Shown: one piece after another, positions 3,997-31,478 of the stretch
How positions within the stretch are numbered: position 1 is the first letter of the stretch
Layout of the letters: each line of letters begins with the position of its first letter
Assembly: GCF_001661265.1 (NCBI RefSeq)
Contig: NW_017566995.1
Coordinates: 434,001 to 498,000, forward strand
Reading direction: 5' to 3'
DNA: 64,000 nt
Source: Saitoella complicata NRRL Y-17804
Taxonomy: Eukaryota; Ascomycota; Saitoellomycetes; Saitoellales; Saitoellaceae
The notes under the pieces: model-generated
Database searches by the model: none
What the model was told of the DNA's origin: nothing
What the model saw: the letters and a program-made list of their open reading frames with translations, nothing else
Translations under genes and position numbers: made by a program

Positions 3997-5541
3997 TCAC
4001 ATCAACACAACATGCTGCCGACAATACTCAACCACGGCCACAACCTCCTCACACTCCTCCCCACTCTCACACCCAACCAACACCTCCCTCCCACTCACAA
4101 ACCCAACCCTAACAACATTCCTCATCCCCACCATCTCTTCCTTGACAACCCCCACACTCTCGACCTCACTCAACAAATCCCACATACTCGCTGGTCCGAG
4201 GCTGGATTCGACCAGCAGTTTGCGGTCTCGAATTGTGAGCCAGCGGCGGCGCCAGAGGGGGGAGTTGGCCTGGACGTTGACGTAGCCGGCGATCAATTCC
4301 ATTCCTTGCGCCTCCAAACGGGCCAAATGCTCCCATAGTCCGTATTTACCGCTTGTTGTGGGTCCGGGGCTGGTGGGCGTGAGGAATGTTGGGGACGCGG
4401 GCAGGGATTCCTGTTCGCGTTCCCGATCCCGCTCCATAGCGACACTGACGCAGCGTACGCCTTGGTTGACTCGTGCCATCCGATTCATCCATTTCGGACT
4501 CCTAGGTGGTACATCACCTCCTTCACTCTTTGAGCGTGCTCTCACCACCTCCGGGTCCGGCAGGACAACTTGAAGAGGTAAAGCAATCAACTTGTGCCCT
4601 TCCATCAACTTCTCCCGATCCGGATCCATCTGAAACCCACCATGCAAAGGATTTGAAGTCAACGGCGGACTAGGCGGTGCCGGAAACCCGATCAGCGGCT
4701 CAAACGGGAGCATCTGCTGCTCGTGCTCTTTCTCGGTGGCACTGGGGAGCAGCATCGGGAACGCACTTAACCGCACCGGATTCTGTGATGCCCATTCGGA
4801 CCATGGCTGGTCCATATCAGCGTACCCTTCATCCCGTCTCCTCCTCCTCGTACTAGTCCTATGCACCAATTGTAAACTCTCGACTGATGCAGCACCTTCG
4901 TACGAACTTCCTACACTCCCAACAGAAACGCGTCGATCACGTCGGAGTGCGGACCAATCACCCACCTCTAAACAACTCGTCCAACCCCGGAAGGTCTCCA
5001 GCAATGTTTGCCAATGAACAGTGGTTCGTGCTCTTGTTACACCGCCCGCAGTCGGCTTGACATATTTGATTGCCAATACACTCGGCTCCGGGTCGAGCCG
5101 AGCGGTGGGCTGAGCAACGAAAGCGTAGAGAGCATCGGTCGACGGTGGGATAGGCGTGTTGACCAACCCATTCAATCCGGTACACCCACTCGACCACAAC
5201 ACCAAGGTCGAACGATTCGTATACGTCAATATCATCCTACGGATCAGCCGTCACATTAGCGCAGGCGATCAGTTGCTGGGGGTTAGCAACACAAACCAAG
5301 CATCAGAATCGCGGGTAGACACCCTCTCCCACGCATGGCTGACGCTCAAAGCACGCAAACCGTTCAAGGACATTGCCCGACTACGAGGATGAAGTCGAGG
5401 GTCTATGAGGATTGTACACGATTGATTACAGGGGAGACTTTCTATTTCTATCTCGGCGAGGGAGGGGATCCGTGTCAGCGGGCACTCAATAACCCGAAAC
5501 CGCCCTCTCCTGTTCCTGACGGCCCTGCGTCCCTGCGTCAC
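3997..5541 (-). CDS. PH-domain-like protein
   Basis: The main exon (3997-5236) joins an upstream exon (5297 to about 5541) through a 60-nt intron (5237-5296, donor GTTTGT, branch GCTAAT), giving SDAW followed by MILTYTNRSTLVLW. If the first Met is used the product is 494 residues. The C-terminal ~100 residues (AGYVNVQANSPLWRRRW, then alternating strands and a final helix) look like a pleckstrin-homology fold. The middle is a long low-complexity linker with a basic run (RTSTRRRRRD). The N-terminal exon may be a second PH-like half. The start is uncertain because the DNA upstream is repetitive. A membrane or cortex adaptor role is only inferred from the fold. Confidence 0.5.
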
Positions 5542-5606
5542 CTGGGAGAACCCGAAACCGCGTCACCTGGGAGAATCCGTTCCTGACGGTGTTCTGTTCC
5601 TGACGG
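5491..5606. repeat. short interleaved direct repeats
   Basis: Three motifs recur: CCCGAAACCG (twice), GCGTCACCTGGGAGAA (nearly exact, twice) and GTTCCTGACGG (three times). They lie at the start of the PH-domain gene, in the spacer it shares with the bZIP gene. Confidence 0.75.
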
Positions 5607-5757
5607 TTGCCACTCTTAACAATTCGATGCCGCTTAGGTAAACATGCGATTGTGCCGCGCAGAGTCGGCGTGATGTCATGCCGCACACCGCTGCACACCC
5701 AGATCGAGGTGCAGCGCGACATCGCCCCCCCACGCGGCCCGTCAGGTGCGGCCCCGC

Positions 5758-5849
5758 GTGCTCACTGCTGGCGATCCGTGATTCCCCCCCCCCGTGCTCA
5801 CTGCTGGATAAAAAGGTATTCCCCCCCCGTGCACTGCTGGATAAAAAGG
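5758..5849 (+). repeat. promoter tandem repeat, about 36-nt unit
   Basis: The core GTGCTCACTGCTGG occurs at 5758-5771 and 5794-5807, and as GTGCACTGCTGG at 5829-5840. The last two copies continue into GATAAAAAGG. Each copy is preceded by a run of 7-11 C. The last copy ends 9 nt before the bZIP start codon, so ATAAAAAGG may act as duplicated TATA-like elements or lie in the 5' leader. Confidence 0.75.
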
Positions 5850-5857
5850 GTTGCAAC

Positions 5858-7138
5858 ATGCCGTCCACTTTCACTCCGGGCTTCTTCTCCGCCGCTTTCA
5901 CAGACCTCAATCCGTTCGACGCTTCGTTCGGTGGTGCCTCGGGTCGCAACTCGCCCTTCCCTCTCCCTGACTTTGCCCTCGGTGCTTCGGCTTCGCCCGT
6001 TCCACGCACCCTCGAAGGAGCTCTGACACTCCCTCCCATGAACTGGGCCTCCGCCGTCGAAAAGGACGGGATCATGGAAGAACAGGGTGCATACACGACC
6101 AGTGTTCACCTCCAGCACATCAACCCACACACCGGACAACCATCTCCGTCTCCCTCACCCACCACCGATATCCCGAATAATGCTCCTCCGTCTATCTTTA
6201 GTCAACCTTCGCCGTTGATGGGGGTGCCGCCTCAGCAGGTCATGCCGCCTATCGATCCGCGTATGCAGATTATGCCTCGTCCGTTTTCTGGGCAAGTCAC
6301 TCCTCCGGAGGATATTACTACCAAGTCGGCTCCTGCTCCAAGGGGTAACAGCGCCCACGGAAGGAGCAAGAGTATGAGTGCGGCTACTACAAAGGCTACC
6401 CGTGGTGGTGGTGGAGCAAGGAAGAGGAAGGTTAGTGCTGTTGATGTAGCGGGCGAGGTCATGTTGCCACCTCTCTCCACCAAGAAACCCAAACTCATCT
6501 CGCCCGAAGACTCTTCTGCTCCCGCAGTGTCTCGCCGCGGCGGCCGCCGCCCAAAATCCACTCCAGACCAAAAAGAACCCTCACCCTCTCCCTCTCCCGA
6601 AGACTTTGACGACGCCGACCCCAACGACTTCTCCCGCCGCTCAAAATTCCTCGAACGCAACCGCCTCGCCGCGTCGAAATGCCGCCTCAAAAAGAAACAA
6701 TGGGCAAACGACCTCGAAGCCACAGCTCGCCTCGCTTCCCAGCGATCCAGGCAATTGCAGGTCATGGCAGCACAGTTGAGGGAGGAGGTCTTGTTGTTGA
6801 AGGGGAGGTTGTTGGCGCATGAGGGGTGTGGGTGTGAGGCTATCAGGAGGTATTTGTCGAGGGAGGCGGAGATGTTGTCGCAGAGGCAAGGGTATGCCCC
6901 AAGCCATGGAGGACATGTGGGCGGTGTTGGGATGACGATGCCTGGTATTCAGATGGGACATGGACACAATCATGGTCATGGTCATGGTGAGGGGTTGAAG
7001 ATGGAGCCGATGACGCCGGCTATGCCTACGATGCCGTCGCCGCATGCTCAGCCTGGGGCTGAAGTAGACGAGGGGATCACCGGAGCTGCAGGTGATGGGA
7101 TGTTCTACGACGAACCCATCTCCGTCTCGGCTGCTTGA
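5858..7138 (+). CDS. bZIP transcription factor, ATF/CREB (Atf1-like) type
   Basis: An intronless frame of 426 residues starts MPSTFTPGFFSAAF. This ATG is preferred over the longer frame because the upstream DNA is C-run repeat. The bZIP lies at about 258-325: basic region NRLAASKCRLKKKQW, then spaced hydrophobic positions and LLLKGRLLAHEGCGC. The NRxAASKCRxKKK core and the terminal HxxC-type block match the Atf1/Atf21/CREB group, which responds to stress through MAP kinase. The N-terminal half is Ser/Pro-rich with a basic stretch (GGGARKRKVSA) that may be a nuclear signal. A His/Gly run (GHGHNHGHGHG) near residue 370 is unusual and could bind metal. The exact orthology to Atf1 is not certain. 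Confidence 0.88.
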   Translation: MPSTFTPGFFSAAFTDLNPFDASFGGASGRNSPFPLPDFALGASASPVPRTLEGALTLPPMNWASAVEKDGIMEEQGAYTTSVHLQHINPHTGQPSPSPSPTTDIPNNAPPSIFSQPSPLMGVPPQQVMPPIDPRMQIMPRPFSGQVTPPEDITTKSAPAPRGNSAHGRSKSMSAATTKATRGGGGARKRKVSAVDVAGEVMLPPLSTKKPKLISPEDSSAPAVSRRGGRRPKSTPDQKEPSPSPSPEDFDDADPNDFSRRSKFLERNRLAASKCRLKKKQWANDLEATARLASQRSRQLQVMAAQLREEVLLLKGRLLAHEGCGCEAIRRYLSREAEMLSQRQGYAPSHGGHVGGVGMTMPGIQMGHGHNHGHGHGEGLKMEPMTPAMPTMPSPHAQPGAEVDEGITGAAGDGMFYDEPISVSAA

Positions 7139-8447: not shown

Positions 8448-8729
8448 TTAAGCGATGGTGCAGGTGTAGGCAACAACGGCACTTAGAAGAGAACAGTTAG
8501 CTCGAAGGACTGGGTGAGAGTATGAGCGAGCAAGCTTACCGCTCAGAAGACTGAACAGAGCAGGTGTAGGCGACAACAGCGCGCTCGGAGCTCTGGACAG
8601 AGCAGGTGTAAGCAACAACGGCACTGAAAAAGATCAGTTAGTAAGAGAGAACCAAAGACTTTAGAATTGAGGAGTTGCTTACCGCTCGGAGGAGGCGAGG
8701 ACGGGAGCAGAGAAGGTGCAGGCAGGCAT
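8448..8729 (-). CDS. tandem-repeat peptide precursor ending in a CaaX box (candidate lipopeptide pheromone-like gene)
   Basis: Exons 8683-8729, 8540-8623 and 8448-8481 join in phase to 54 residues. After MPACTFSAPVLA come three units. Each starts SSER, continues AVVAYTC, and ends SVQ in units 1 and 2 or TIA-stop in unit 3. The last four residues, CTIA, form a CaaX prenylation box. There is no signal peptide, as in a-factor-type precursors exported by ABC transporters. Basidiomycete pheromone precursors are commonly cut near Glu-Arg, and the rhodotorucine A genes of Rhodosporidium carry tandem peptide copies each followed by a CaaX-like tail; this gene has the same logic. Both introns (58-59 nt) split the Arg codon at the same place in the unit. 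TATAAGA lies at 8801-8807. The peptide family itself is not recognised, so function is inferred. Alternative: a small Cys-containing protein unrelated to mating. Confidence 0.6.
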
Positions 8730-9568
8730 TGTAGTAGTAGTAGTTGAGTTGGTCAGTGAGTGTGTTTGATGAGGTTGAAGAGACGGGGGAAACAGCCTCT
8801 TCTTATAGACAAATCTCGAGAGGATCTGTGCTAGAGCCCGACGAAGGCCAATGGACAAAGAAACCGTCGCTGTCGAGTCCACATGGTCCTTTGCGAAGTG
8901 CCAACTGCCTTGTTCTCAGGCGTAACGGAAGCCTTGCAGGCGCGTGGTAACAATACTAACCGCTCCACAATAGGCCTAAGCATATTGTTCTTGCCCTTTG
9001 TGATTCTACCGTTGAATCCCAAGCGACCGCTCAAAGCCAGATTTTCCTCGTCCACTTCCTTTACCGATTCATACCGACGACCGTTTCCAACCGGTCCATG
9101 TCTTTGTAACAGTGTGTACGATCGGGATGGCAGCACGTGGATACAATAGCAGTGACATCGCCTTCGAAATCACGGTATTGTTCTTATCTAGCCATGGCTG
9201 TACTTCTTACAACGTGGCTCCCTCCATCCCCGCCCCACGTTCAGCTTTATCGTAGTGAACAATAGCAGGCCATTACTTAAGGTCTGCAAGGCATTGTTCG
9301 GTTGCGATAAACCGAACGGGTCCCTGTAGTAGTCCTACATAATAACACTCGCGGACCGAGGTTTCGCCGCTTTGGATGGGGAACAATACCTAGCGGGGTA
9401 TTGTCTACGCGCCCGTACCTGGAACGTACGACGGGGAAAATTGGTTTCTGCTCTGGAGATGAAGATCGAGAATACAAGAAAGGAACATTATCCATTCTAA
9501 AAATATGCCTGCCCATTCAGCAGGGATGCGGTATGCTACCGGTCTGCCTGTCGTACGACGCAGACATA
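8730..9568 (-). promoter_or_regulatory. upstream region of the repeat-precursor gene, rich in AACAAT motifs
   Basis: HIBCH ends at 9569 on the same strand, so this gap serves only the small precursor gene. It holds six AACAAT/ATTGTT cores (8949-8954, 8984-8989, 9177-9182, 9258-9263, 9293-9298, 9382-9387); five extend to GAACAAT. Chance would give about 0.4. AACAAT is the classical core bound by SRY/MATA-HMG proteins. ACAAAGGGC (8993-9001, minus strand) differs by one base from the Ustilago pheromone response element ACAAAGGGA. Two hairpins with 8-bp stems and 6-nt loops sit at 9296-9317 and 9383-9404. Confidence 0.5.
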
Positions 9569-11338
9569 TCACTGCACCCACATCAAAGTCGACAGCTCAC
9601 TCTCCCCAGCAGCCCTCAGCTTAGTCTTTCTCGCAAGGATATCCCTAACCTTCTCCGCCACACCGGCCCTGCCTCTCCTGTTCTGCACAAAGAAATCTAC
9701 AACCTCCTCCGCCAACCAAGCGTTCACTCCACCATCACGGTGCATTCCCTCGATCAGCTGCTTAACCTCCACCTCGTTGGGCAAGTCCACCTGGTAGTGC
9801 TTCGCACGATGATGAGGCATACCCTTATACGGAATCCAGGAACGCGGTCGAGGCAATAACTCAAGCTCAGGGTCGTCCATTTTCACGTCGAAATACCAGT
9901 TCTGAATGTCCTGGTCGACATCTTCAATGTTTGCAGGCTGCCAATTTGGTCTGCCCCCCTCCTTCAACACCAACTTGGTCTCGACACCAGTAACGAAGTC
10001 CTCAGTCTGAACGAACCTCGAAGCAATGATGAACTCGCGCTTAAACGCTTCATCGATATCCCAGTTGCTACCCTCTCTCAGCTGCCTTAAAGTAACAGCC
10101 AGACTGCGAGGCGAACGCTCGCGGAGGAGCCTGATCGTCTCATGAGCCCAAGCAGTGTTCTCCTTCTCCAACGCTTTAATCACCTTGGTCACCGATTTGA
10201 AGTTGAAGCACCTGTCGATCGCCTTCCGAATGTCACCCGAAAGAGCGAACTGGTATCCCTTAGGCACCTCGCCAACGAAATCATCGATCGCCTCGCTGAT
10301 CTGGCTCAAGTCCGACGTCTCGAGCTCGGCCAAACGAGTCTCCAACATCGGGAGACGCTCAGAAGGAACATAGTGCGTAGCAATACCAGCCATGACAACA
10401 TCCCAGCCCCTGAGCTGCGCGCTGGTCATTCCAAGGTAGGTACCCAACTTTCCATCGAGACGGGACAAGAAGAAGGATGCACCGACGTCAGGGAAGAATC
10501 CGATAGTGGTTTCCGGCATAGCAAAGAGAGTTTTCTCGGTCGCGATACGGATAGGTGCGTGCATGGATAAACCGGCGCCTCCGCCCACTAAGTAAAAATC
10601 CGTCAGCTATGAACATCCTCAGATAAATGGGGCAAATCAACTTACTCGTGATACCATCCATGATGGCAACGTAAGGCTTGGTATATGATGCAATGAGGTG
10701 GTCGAGCTTGTATTCATCACCAAAGTATTCGGTGGCCTTCTTGAAACCCTCTGGCGTCCCGTCCTTGACATCCGAGGCAACGGCTGTAGAGATTCGTAAG
10801 CTGTCAGCCGAAAAGACGCCGTAACCTCGTGGGACTCACCTACAACATCACCGCCCGCGCAGAGGGCACGCCCAGCACCCTTCAAGACGATAACCTTGGC
10901 GAGATCGGACTTTTCCCATTCCTGCATAACTTGGTCAGACCTCTGATATATCGTATCTACGCTGCGCAAAATCTAACCTGCAACCGAGGAGTGATTTTTG
11001 AAACCATAGAGGCAGTGAGAGAGTTCAACTTCTTAGGTCTGTTGAGGATGATGGTACGGGTACCGAATTTGGATTCGAAAAGTACGTCATTCTGTTGAGA
11101 TATGTCAAAACATGCCCAAGGACGAGCGAGCGGACAAGAACGTTACCTCAGCGAGCTGTTGCGATTCGGAGGCAGAGTTTGAGGCCATCTGTAAGATTGC
11201 GACGGTCAATTGAGATCTGAGAAACGATCAGACCGTATGTACCTTGATGCTCCCATTCAAGAACGCAGGGTTCGTGATCTTTGCTCGTAGAGGCATGGCG
11301 ACCGGCCTGAAACGCAGAGCTGTTCTGGAGGCGAGCAT
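9569..11338 (-). CDS. 3-hydroxyisobutyryl-CoA hydrolase, mitochondrial
   Basis: Six exons (11243-11338, 11147-11188, 10978-11091, 10840-10921, 10646-10783, 9569-10587) join in phase to 496 residues. The start MLASRTALRFRPVAM is a typical mitochondrial presequence. The crotonase fold is clear: RTIILNRPKKLNSL, then GRALCAGGDVV (oxyanion-hole loop), MDGITMGGGAGLS, and the HIBCH-specific MPETTIGFFPDVGASFFLSRL with the catalytic Glu. The enzyme hydrolyses 3-hydroxyisobutyryl-CoA in valine breakdown; yeast Ehd3 is a relative. The C-terminal HIBCH extension is present and length is normal for the family. The final acidic end is ordinary. Confidence 0.93.
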
Positions 11339-30440: not shown

Positions 30441-31478
30441 TGAGCCGCACCGCCAAATGACTTCGAAATCGACGTGTACTTTACGCCGTCGCAGCACACG
30501 TGAGAAATCGGAGATGCCCAGAAACGAGGTTGCAAGATGCTTTCAGGTGGTAATTGGGTAATAATTACTATCATATAGGTATCTATCAAAACAATTCGCC
30601 GCGTTGCGCGATTGGCCTGCAGCGACGCACACAGGCTTCCAGGGACACTGCATTTTCGCACGCGGAGTCCGGCAATTTCGTGTCTCCCGTTCATGACCAT
30701 GAAGCAGTATGATATCTGATAGCTTCAGGCAGATCTGGGTGCTTATGGGCTTGTGTTGCCAGTTCGTTTTTTTGGCCTGTTCCTTGGTCCAAATGTCGAG
30801 ACCCCTCATCGCTTGCAATTGTTCAACGGAAAATGATTTATGACAAGTCTGGACCATTCCAAAATTGTACCCTACCGACAGAGATCACTTGCAACCATCG
30901 CACGACATGCTCAAGGTGATGTATTCCGCGACGAATCAGTCCGTCTTTTTCCGTACGTTCGGATCAACGAGTACTACATTTCTCACGCTTATGGCCCACA
31001 GTCTCCTTGGTTTCTTAGCTCCTGATATCATTGTAGTATTTTCGCCACATACGTCCTTCTTTAGAATATAGACGGAGCCTAGCAAACGTTTATGTTCGAT
31101 CTTCCACCCTGGTCTCTTGGATGGTTCTTGCACCTCGACCCAGACTACCCGGAGGCATAAATCATCTGTTTAACGACAGCTGCCCATTATATATTGTAGG
31201 TTTACTTAAGCGCAACTTCTTTACACAGCACTTCACGAACTTTGAACGAACGCCAAATTGTTTCCCACGCCATCCAATGACGAAGTAAGGGAAGGTTGAA
31301 CACGCGAAGATATTGTACACGCTTCAGATGCTGGACATTATATTATCTATGGTGTCTCACATATATCCTATCGCGAAAAAGATGGTGAAGAGATAAGTGA
31401 TGCGAATGCCCAGATGAAAAATGAAAGAAGAACGCCCATCCCGCACCTAATCCCACTGGTATCCGTGTATGTGTTCTT
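30441..31478. other. intergenic gap
   Basis: About 1 kb lies between the repeat island and the histidine-kinase gene. Only short unrelated frames are seen. Nothing is recognised. Confidence 0.5.

Follow-up and report, generated by a model that had tools for sequence, protein, structure and literature searches.

Precursors that carry several copies of a CaaX-terminated peptide are already known from Hypocreales, Ceratocystidaceae, and red yeasts (PMC3068285, PMC3236058, PMC13037118). The RHA genes of red yeasts encode rhodotorucine A in tandem copies with CaaX-like spacers between them (PMC3068285, PMC3236058), and the enzymes that process this precursor were not known as of 2010 (PMC3068285). 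HPP1 proteins of the h-type (hybrid-type), found in Trichoderma and Fusarium relatives, are ascomycete a-type precursors with three CaaX-like copies, the last of them C-terminal; HPP1 of Trichoderma is essential for male fertility, its Kex2 sites are dispensable, and such sites are not present in all h-type proteins (PMC3068285, whose authors raised the idea of lateral transfer from basidiomycetes for the Hypocreales case). In Huntiella and other Ceratocystidaceae, the precursors contain from one to five mature peptides of 7 to 10 residues, themselves predictions, each with its own CaaX or CpaX motif (PMC13037118, PMC10182648).

The M-factor precursors of fission yeasts are organized differently: the mfm genes of Schizosaccharomyces pombe (mfm1 to mfm3; S. 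octosporus has six genes) encode one copy per precursor, so that the dose is spread over three genes (PMC6342294). The M-specific genes of S. pombe include, in addition to mfm1 to mfm3, the STE2-type P-factor receptor gene mam2, mam1, and sxa2, whereas map3, which encodes the receptor for M-factor, is P-specific; M-boxes, the binding sites of the HMG protein Mat1-Mc, lie near imperfect Ste11 boxes (PMC1693924). The sxa2 product, a serine carboxypeptidase, is secreted and degrades P-factor (PMC6342294).

The window analyzed here, a stretch of 64,000 nucleotides from Saitoella complicata, carries a gene that very probably encodes the lipopeptide mating-pheromone precursor of this yeast, a counterpart of M-factor and a-factor with three tandem copies. 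We favor this reading because the anatomy of the gene, the exclusively silent divergence of its units, the presence of both STE3 and STE2 receptors in the genome, and a promoter motif common to this gene and STE2 all point to it together. On the minus strand, positions 8729 to 8448 comprise, as judged from sequence signals, three exons with a predicted product of 54 residues:

8683..8729, minus strand: exon 1, 47 nt, encoding the leader MPACTFSAPVLA, SSE, and the first two bases of the Arg codon
8624..8682, minus strand: intron 1, 59 nt, GTAAGC..TACTAAC..TTTTTCAG, within the Arg codon of SSER, predicted from sequence signals
8540..8623, minus strand: exon 2, 84 nt, encoding AVVAYTC-SVQ-SSER-AVVAYTC-SVQ-SSE(R)
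8482..8539, minus strand: intron 2, 58 nt, GTAAGC..GCTAAC..TCTAAG, in the same phase and unit position as intron 1
8448..8481, minus strand: exon 3, 34 nt, encoding (R)AVVAYTC-TIA-stop, with the C-terminal CaaX box

The predicted protein (54 aa) thus reads MPACTFSAPVLA-SSERAVVAYTC-SVQ-SSERAVVAYTC-SVQ-SSERAVVAYTC-TIA-stop, and the exon/intron reading agrees with the earlier note, which had described a spliced 54-residue product with three SSER-AVVAYTC units, SVQ tails, and a CTIA end. Both introns begin with GTAAGC, contain a CTAAC branch-like site (13 and 14 nt upstream of the ends of introns 1 and 2, respectively), and split the Arg codon of SSER after CG; the acceptor is CAG in intron 1 and the less usual AAG in intron 2. 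Retention of either intron would place a stop directly after SSER. The introns have similar ends, but their interiors are no more alike than shuffled sequences (P = 0.21), so they were left out as a neutral clock. With its 54 residues and CTIA end, the product has the small size (<100 aa) and the CaaX/CpaX terminus of a-factor/M-factor-type precursors. No long hydrophobic N-terminal stretch could be recognized by eye in MPACTFSAPVLASSER, and KR, RR, and KK are absent from the 54 residues, leaving no dibasic Kex2 site. CTIA resembles the a-factor box CVIA, and CSVQ would be a plausible farnesylation box if it were C-terminal. The neighborhood of the gene includes a bZIP match below the Pfam cutoff (5642-7138, plus strand) and an enoyl-CoA hydratase family (ECH_2) gene (9569-10606, minus strand).

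The same general layout, tandem copies separated by CaaX-like spacers, is seen in the rhodotorucine A precursors (PMC3068285, PMC3236058), and the presence of three copies of the CaaX motif, one of them C-terminal, in an ascomycete a-type precursor is a feature of HPP1 (PMC3068285). Rhodotorucine A differs from the Saitoella product in being an unrelated peptide of basidiomycetes, a lineage to which Saitoella does not belong. Its spacer ends in Lys, and that of Saitoella consists of SVQ followed by SSER. The Saitoella units (YTCSVQ, YTCSVQ, and YTCTIA) depart from the h-type consensus (LI)GC(TS)VM, and the dibasic Kex2 sites of HPP1 are missing from them. CSVQ and CTIA do fit the CpaX form of Ceratocystidaceae, which are not members of Taphrinomycotina and with which we noticed no common peptide.

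The three 33-nt units differ pairwise at 6, 3, and 7 nucleotides, without a single amino acid change. For the same number of random changes, the neutral probability of an unchanged peptide is about 2e-4, 0.02, and 1e-5, respectively, values that are not independent since they come from three comparisons among three units. The inner CSVQ sequences keep their CaaX-like form and show one silent difference.

This gene appears to be the only one of its kind in the sequences covered. A repeated seven-residue block ending in Cys and followed by CaaX-like tails was found at a single place, the pheromone locus, in the unspliced frames of 197,913 bases (the window plus 15 other loci, mostly fetched for other genes and hence a nonrandom sample). 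The degenerate DNA pattern for AVVAYT and the next two bases (20 nt, unspliced) occurs three times in the 14.1-Mb genome, always at this locus, and neither this pattern nor a 42-residue search of the genome detected a second gene copy; a weak match from the latter on contig C20 (E = 0.24) was read as antisense to an SMC-like ATPase. Short pheromone precursors are often missed by homology searches. A protein database search with the precursor returned 159 candidates, none with E ≤ 10; Pfam and NCBIfam revealed no pheromone family in the 54-residue protein, and PF08015 (fungal mating-type pheromone) had no match over its gathering score and none at the pheromone locus in a genome search. The PF08015 match on contig C18 (17.5 bits, below the cutoff) has no CaaX-like end listed in the matched frame. 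Near STE3, 13 CaaX-like ends were listed in loci L005 and L006 (some of them counted twice, as the ends of these loci overlap), none with tandem units within the ≤75 residues shown. A nonexhaustive genome search turned up no other lipopeptide pheromone candidate. The window had no Rfam match.

Saitoella belongs to Taphrinomycotina within Ascomycota. The genome search found one STE3-type receptor, the kind expected alongside an a-factor/M-factor-type precursor, in an open frame at C6:567549-568394 (E = 2.3e-91), which over the query is 94% identical to the "a-factor receptor [Saitoella coloradoensis]," and one STE2-type receptor at C13:268654-269481. Basidiomycetes are not known to have STE2. 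The DNA is therefore that of a taphrinomycotine ascomycete and not of a basidiomycete, given the closeness of its STE3 to that of S. coloradoensis and the presence of STE2. The earlier note had advised looking for STE3 receptors elsewhere in the genome, and one has now been found; its suggestion of a multicopy CaaX pheromone-like gene is strengthened by the receptors, the promoter motif, and the silent-only divergence, but the basidiomycete setting in which it placed the gene has to be given up. The STE3 gene occupies positions 5022-6341 of locus L006 (C6:562501-571258), ∼3 kb from the end of contig C6, and the contig that carries STE3 in S. coloradoensis (574,177) is similar in size to C6. 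Upstream of STE3, L006 contains a tRNA-like stretch that possibly includes an intron (4387-4481); ARAGORN, run with bacterial settings, listed no tRNA in the window or in L006.

The region upstream of the pheromone gene contains the following elements:

8802..8807, minus strand: TATAAG, at -78 from the ATG, with no ATG between it and 8729
8853..8862, minus strand: TTCTTTGTCC, at -133, differing at one position from the Ste11 site of S. pombe (TR box, TTCTTTGTTY)
8950..8988, no strand assigned: M-box-like cluster, three ACAATA in 39 bp, forming two overlapping inverted pairs and one direct pair
9143..9181, no strand assigned: inverted ACAATA pair
9383..9404, no strand assigned: inverted ACAATA pair
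8730..9529, minus strand: whole upstream region, with nine ACAAT, eight of them ACAATA

The Ste11 consensus is that of PMC3713066, and the Ste11-like site is weak when taken alone, as about 0.14 one-mismatch sites are expected per 800 bp. The ACAAT motif was at first an observation by eye, guided by the S. pombe M-box, and the hexamer ranking and the genome count were run in answer. In that ranking, ACAATA comes first among 2,080 hexamers both in the 800 bp upstream of the pheromone gene (8 versus 0.23 expected; P = 1.5e-10) and upstream of STE2 (5 occurrences; P = 4e-6), against a background of 196,313 bases (the window and 15 loci minus the two test regions, and without either L006, the locus of the STE3 test region, or L054, which duplicates some of the window sequence). 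Upstream of STE3, ACAATA does not occur and ACAAT is near background (3 occurrences), so that, by the motif, an M/a cell-type promoter is indicated for the pheromone gene. Across the window and 17 loci, the highest ACAAT count per 600 bp is 9, reached at the pheromone gene and STE2 promoters each; next come 6 near window position 30,750 and 5 in loci L007 and L041. Within the window, the cluster that ranks second in ACAAT density (6 per 600 bp) spans approximately positions 30701-31450.

Genome-wide, ACAATA-N(0-30)-TATTGT has 9 distinct sites in 14.1 Mb: 4 in the pheromone gene promoter (at three places, as two overlap), 1 upstream of STE2, 1 at C5:197863, and 3 others (C2:56456, C3:126523, and C32:157168) that may have mating genes nearby or be due to chance. 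These totals do not exceed those of reversed controls (9 versus 14 sites, and 27 versus 36 for a second pair pattern), and the striking feature is where the inverted pairs fall rather than their number. The probability of 1e-15 calculated for four independent sites in the pheromone gene promoter is too small and is not relied on, because two of the four pairs overlap.

The S10 carboxypeptidases were searched because sxa2 is M-specific in S. pombe. This search gave 9 matches at four loci, the best at C5:198569-199894; the inverted pair on C5 lies 265-301 bp before the predicted start of this gene, whose upstream region has five ACAAT (P = 0.004) and three ACAATA (P = 6e-4) and whose product has an N terminus that looks like a signal peptide by eye. 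Locus L055 (C5:197600-198600) thus takes in the beginning of a gene that has an M-box-like promoter and encodes an S10 carboxypeptidase, probably a secreted one. The chance of this coincidence is about 0.0014 before allowing for the number of tries, as the HMG, ABC, S10, and ICMT genes were all compared with the motif and one of them fitted. The enzyme is a possible counterpart of Sxa2, and it would then destroy the partner's peptide pheromone. The ABC transporters and ICMT are unsupported as further members of such a regulon: seven ABC transporter regions, covering 13 of the 22 matches, contain no ACAAT cluster (at most 4 per 600 bp), and the ICMT gene is near none of the listed ACAATA pairs. 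At C9:310535-311185, an ABC transporter membrane domain extends over two matches with one in-frame stop, as in an intron-split or decayed gene.

A search for the mating-type gene yielded 7 HMG matches, and none of the 5 examined was read as matMc; PF04769, searched without a positive control, had no match in the genome. One HMG-box protein, of 564 aa with a glutamine-rich N-terminal part, is encoded on contig C26 (L042:2443-4137, minus strand), and its box is closest to the SOX and SRY boxes among solved structures. We take it to be, perhaps, the Ste11 counterpart.

The closest functional relative of the Saitoella gene is the fission yeast M-factor, and rhodotorucine A is an architectural parallel. 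Saitoella and S. pombe belong to the same subphylum, and both have a short CaaX precursor. The Tyr two residues before the Cys in the Saitoella unit has an equivalent in the M-factor of S. pombe. The upstream ACAAT elements accompanied by an imperfect Ste11-type site are a further likeness (PMC1693924), but the orientation differs: in S. pombe the two boxes share a strand, with the M-box on the 5' side of the Ste11 box, whereas the nearest such pairs in Saitoella run in the opposite direction. In Table 3 of PMC1693924, ACAAT is present in 7 of the 12 M-specific promoter rows (cwp1, mam1, mam4, mfm1, mfm2, mfm3, and sxa2) and absent from the segments listed for mam2, mam3, mat-Mc, mat-Mm, and SPAC11H11.03c. 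Since the mam2 row is without ACAAT, the parallel between the STE2 genes of the two yeasts rests on M-specificity and not on a common motif. Unlike the S. pombe genes, the Saitoella gene has three copies in one precursor, introns at two unit borders, and a different peptide. Part of the M-cell gene set is suggested to be common to Saitoella and fission yeast.

The gene could work as follows. An HMG-box mating regulator (compare Mat1-Mc helped by Ste11) would bind the ACAAT cluster and the imperfect Ste11-like site and switch on the pheromone gene, STE2, and the secreted carboxypeptidase together in one cell type. The precursor of 54 residues, translated from the predicted spliced mRNA, would have no signal peptide and be synthesized in the cytosol; its C-terminal CTIA box would be farnesylated, trimmed, and methylated, and cleavage after the acidic-basic pair ER would release AVVAYTC, its C-terminal Cys farnesylated, for export by an ABC transporter to the STE3 receptor of partner cells. 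A cut at this point is favored because in Coprinus a pheromone reportedly cannot function without an acidic-basic pair (PMC3068285, citing Olesnicky) and ER directly precedes AVVAYTC in each unit. Accordingly worded as a structure, the mature form would be the heptapeptide AVVAYTC with a farnesyl Cys methyl ester, for which we see roughly an even chance; the main alternative is the 11-mer SSERAVVAYTC. The inner copies might be freed by the same ER cut together with loss of SSER, which would leave CSVQ exposed. It is doubtful, and in our judgment rather unlikely, that a cytosolic route independent of Kex2 releases and farnesylates every one of the three copies, making genuine C-terminal CaaX boxes of the internal CSVQ sites, with splicing as a gate on the signal; under such a gate, retention of either intron would end the protein after SSER and so remove the CaaX end. 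The shortness of the heptapeptide and the unusual AAG acceptor count against the pheromone reading as a whole.

A substantial possibility, if somewhat short of even, is that only the C-terminal copy becomes pheromone; the inner copies would then be spacers or relics, whose likeness reflects gene conversion or recent origin, and their CSVQ would never be prenylated. CaaX prenylation requires a free C terminus, which favors such a limited role, as do the absence of a dibasic Kex2 site and, by eye, of a signal peptide. The dispensability of the Kex2 sites in Trichoderma HPP1 agrees with it too (PMC3068285), but the units differ at up to 7 of 33 nucleotides with the peptide unchanged, the inner CSVQ is CaaX-like, and the tandem precursors of red yeasts and Ceratocystidaceae show the same layout.

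Other explanations fare less well. The product might act in the mating program as something other than the ligand of STE3, either a CaaX lipopeptide or a small prenylated protein such as an intracellular factor; a seven-residue product is short and hydrophobic, and its binding to the receptor is a matter of inference, yet a layout of identical tandem units with short spacers is what released peptides typically have, a receptor gene and a carboxypeptidase gene carry the promoter motif too, and no competing candidate came out of the nonexhaustive genome search, which makes this improbable. Chance repeated DNA, open only after invented splicing, would account for the lack of a protein database match, but silent-only divergence, introns at matching unit positions, and the promoter signal render it very improbable. 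Least credible of all, and refuted as to lineage, is a basidiomycete pheromone of the rhodotorucine type: tandem units with CaaX-like tails between them are indeed its hallmark in PMC3068285, but this genome has STE2 and an STE3 that is 94% identical to that of an ascomycete.

Lipopeptide pheromones are hard to find because their genes are tiny and fast-evolving, and the protein database search missed the Saitoella precursor. In the literature excerpts searched, neither a lipopeptide pheromone gene of Saitoella nor a Taphrinomycotina precursor with tandem lipopeptides is described. Fungi named as sources of the GPCR-peptide pairs of a yeast toolkit include "Saitoella japonica" (PMC12941744), a name with no entry in the taxonomy; a Saitoella peptide may already be in use. 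As far as we have seen, what is new here is that a precursor with three copies, unit-border introns, a different peptide, and no Kex2 sites would perform the M-factor job.

Under the pheromone reading, the STE3 receptor, so far unpaired, gains a candidate ligand in a genus without a known sexual state (PMC7912804), and the promoter supplies an independent argument for it. The reading also extends the short list of lineages with tandem CaaX precursors by one and, being another case of either independent or ancestral origin, is relevant to the idea of lateral transfer. In Saitoella, an early-branching ascomycete yeast, one precursor would carry three copies of the signal, unlike its fission yeast counterpart. 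If all three copies are indeed used, this would be a multicopy a-factor in an early-branching ascomycete, an arrangement that either arose several times or predates the split between ascomycetes and basidiomycetes.
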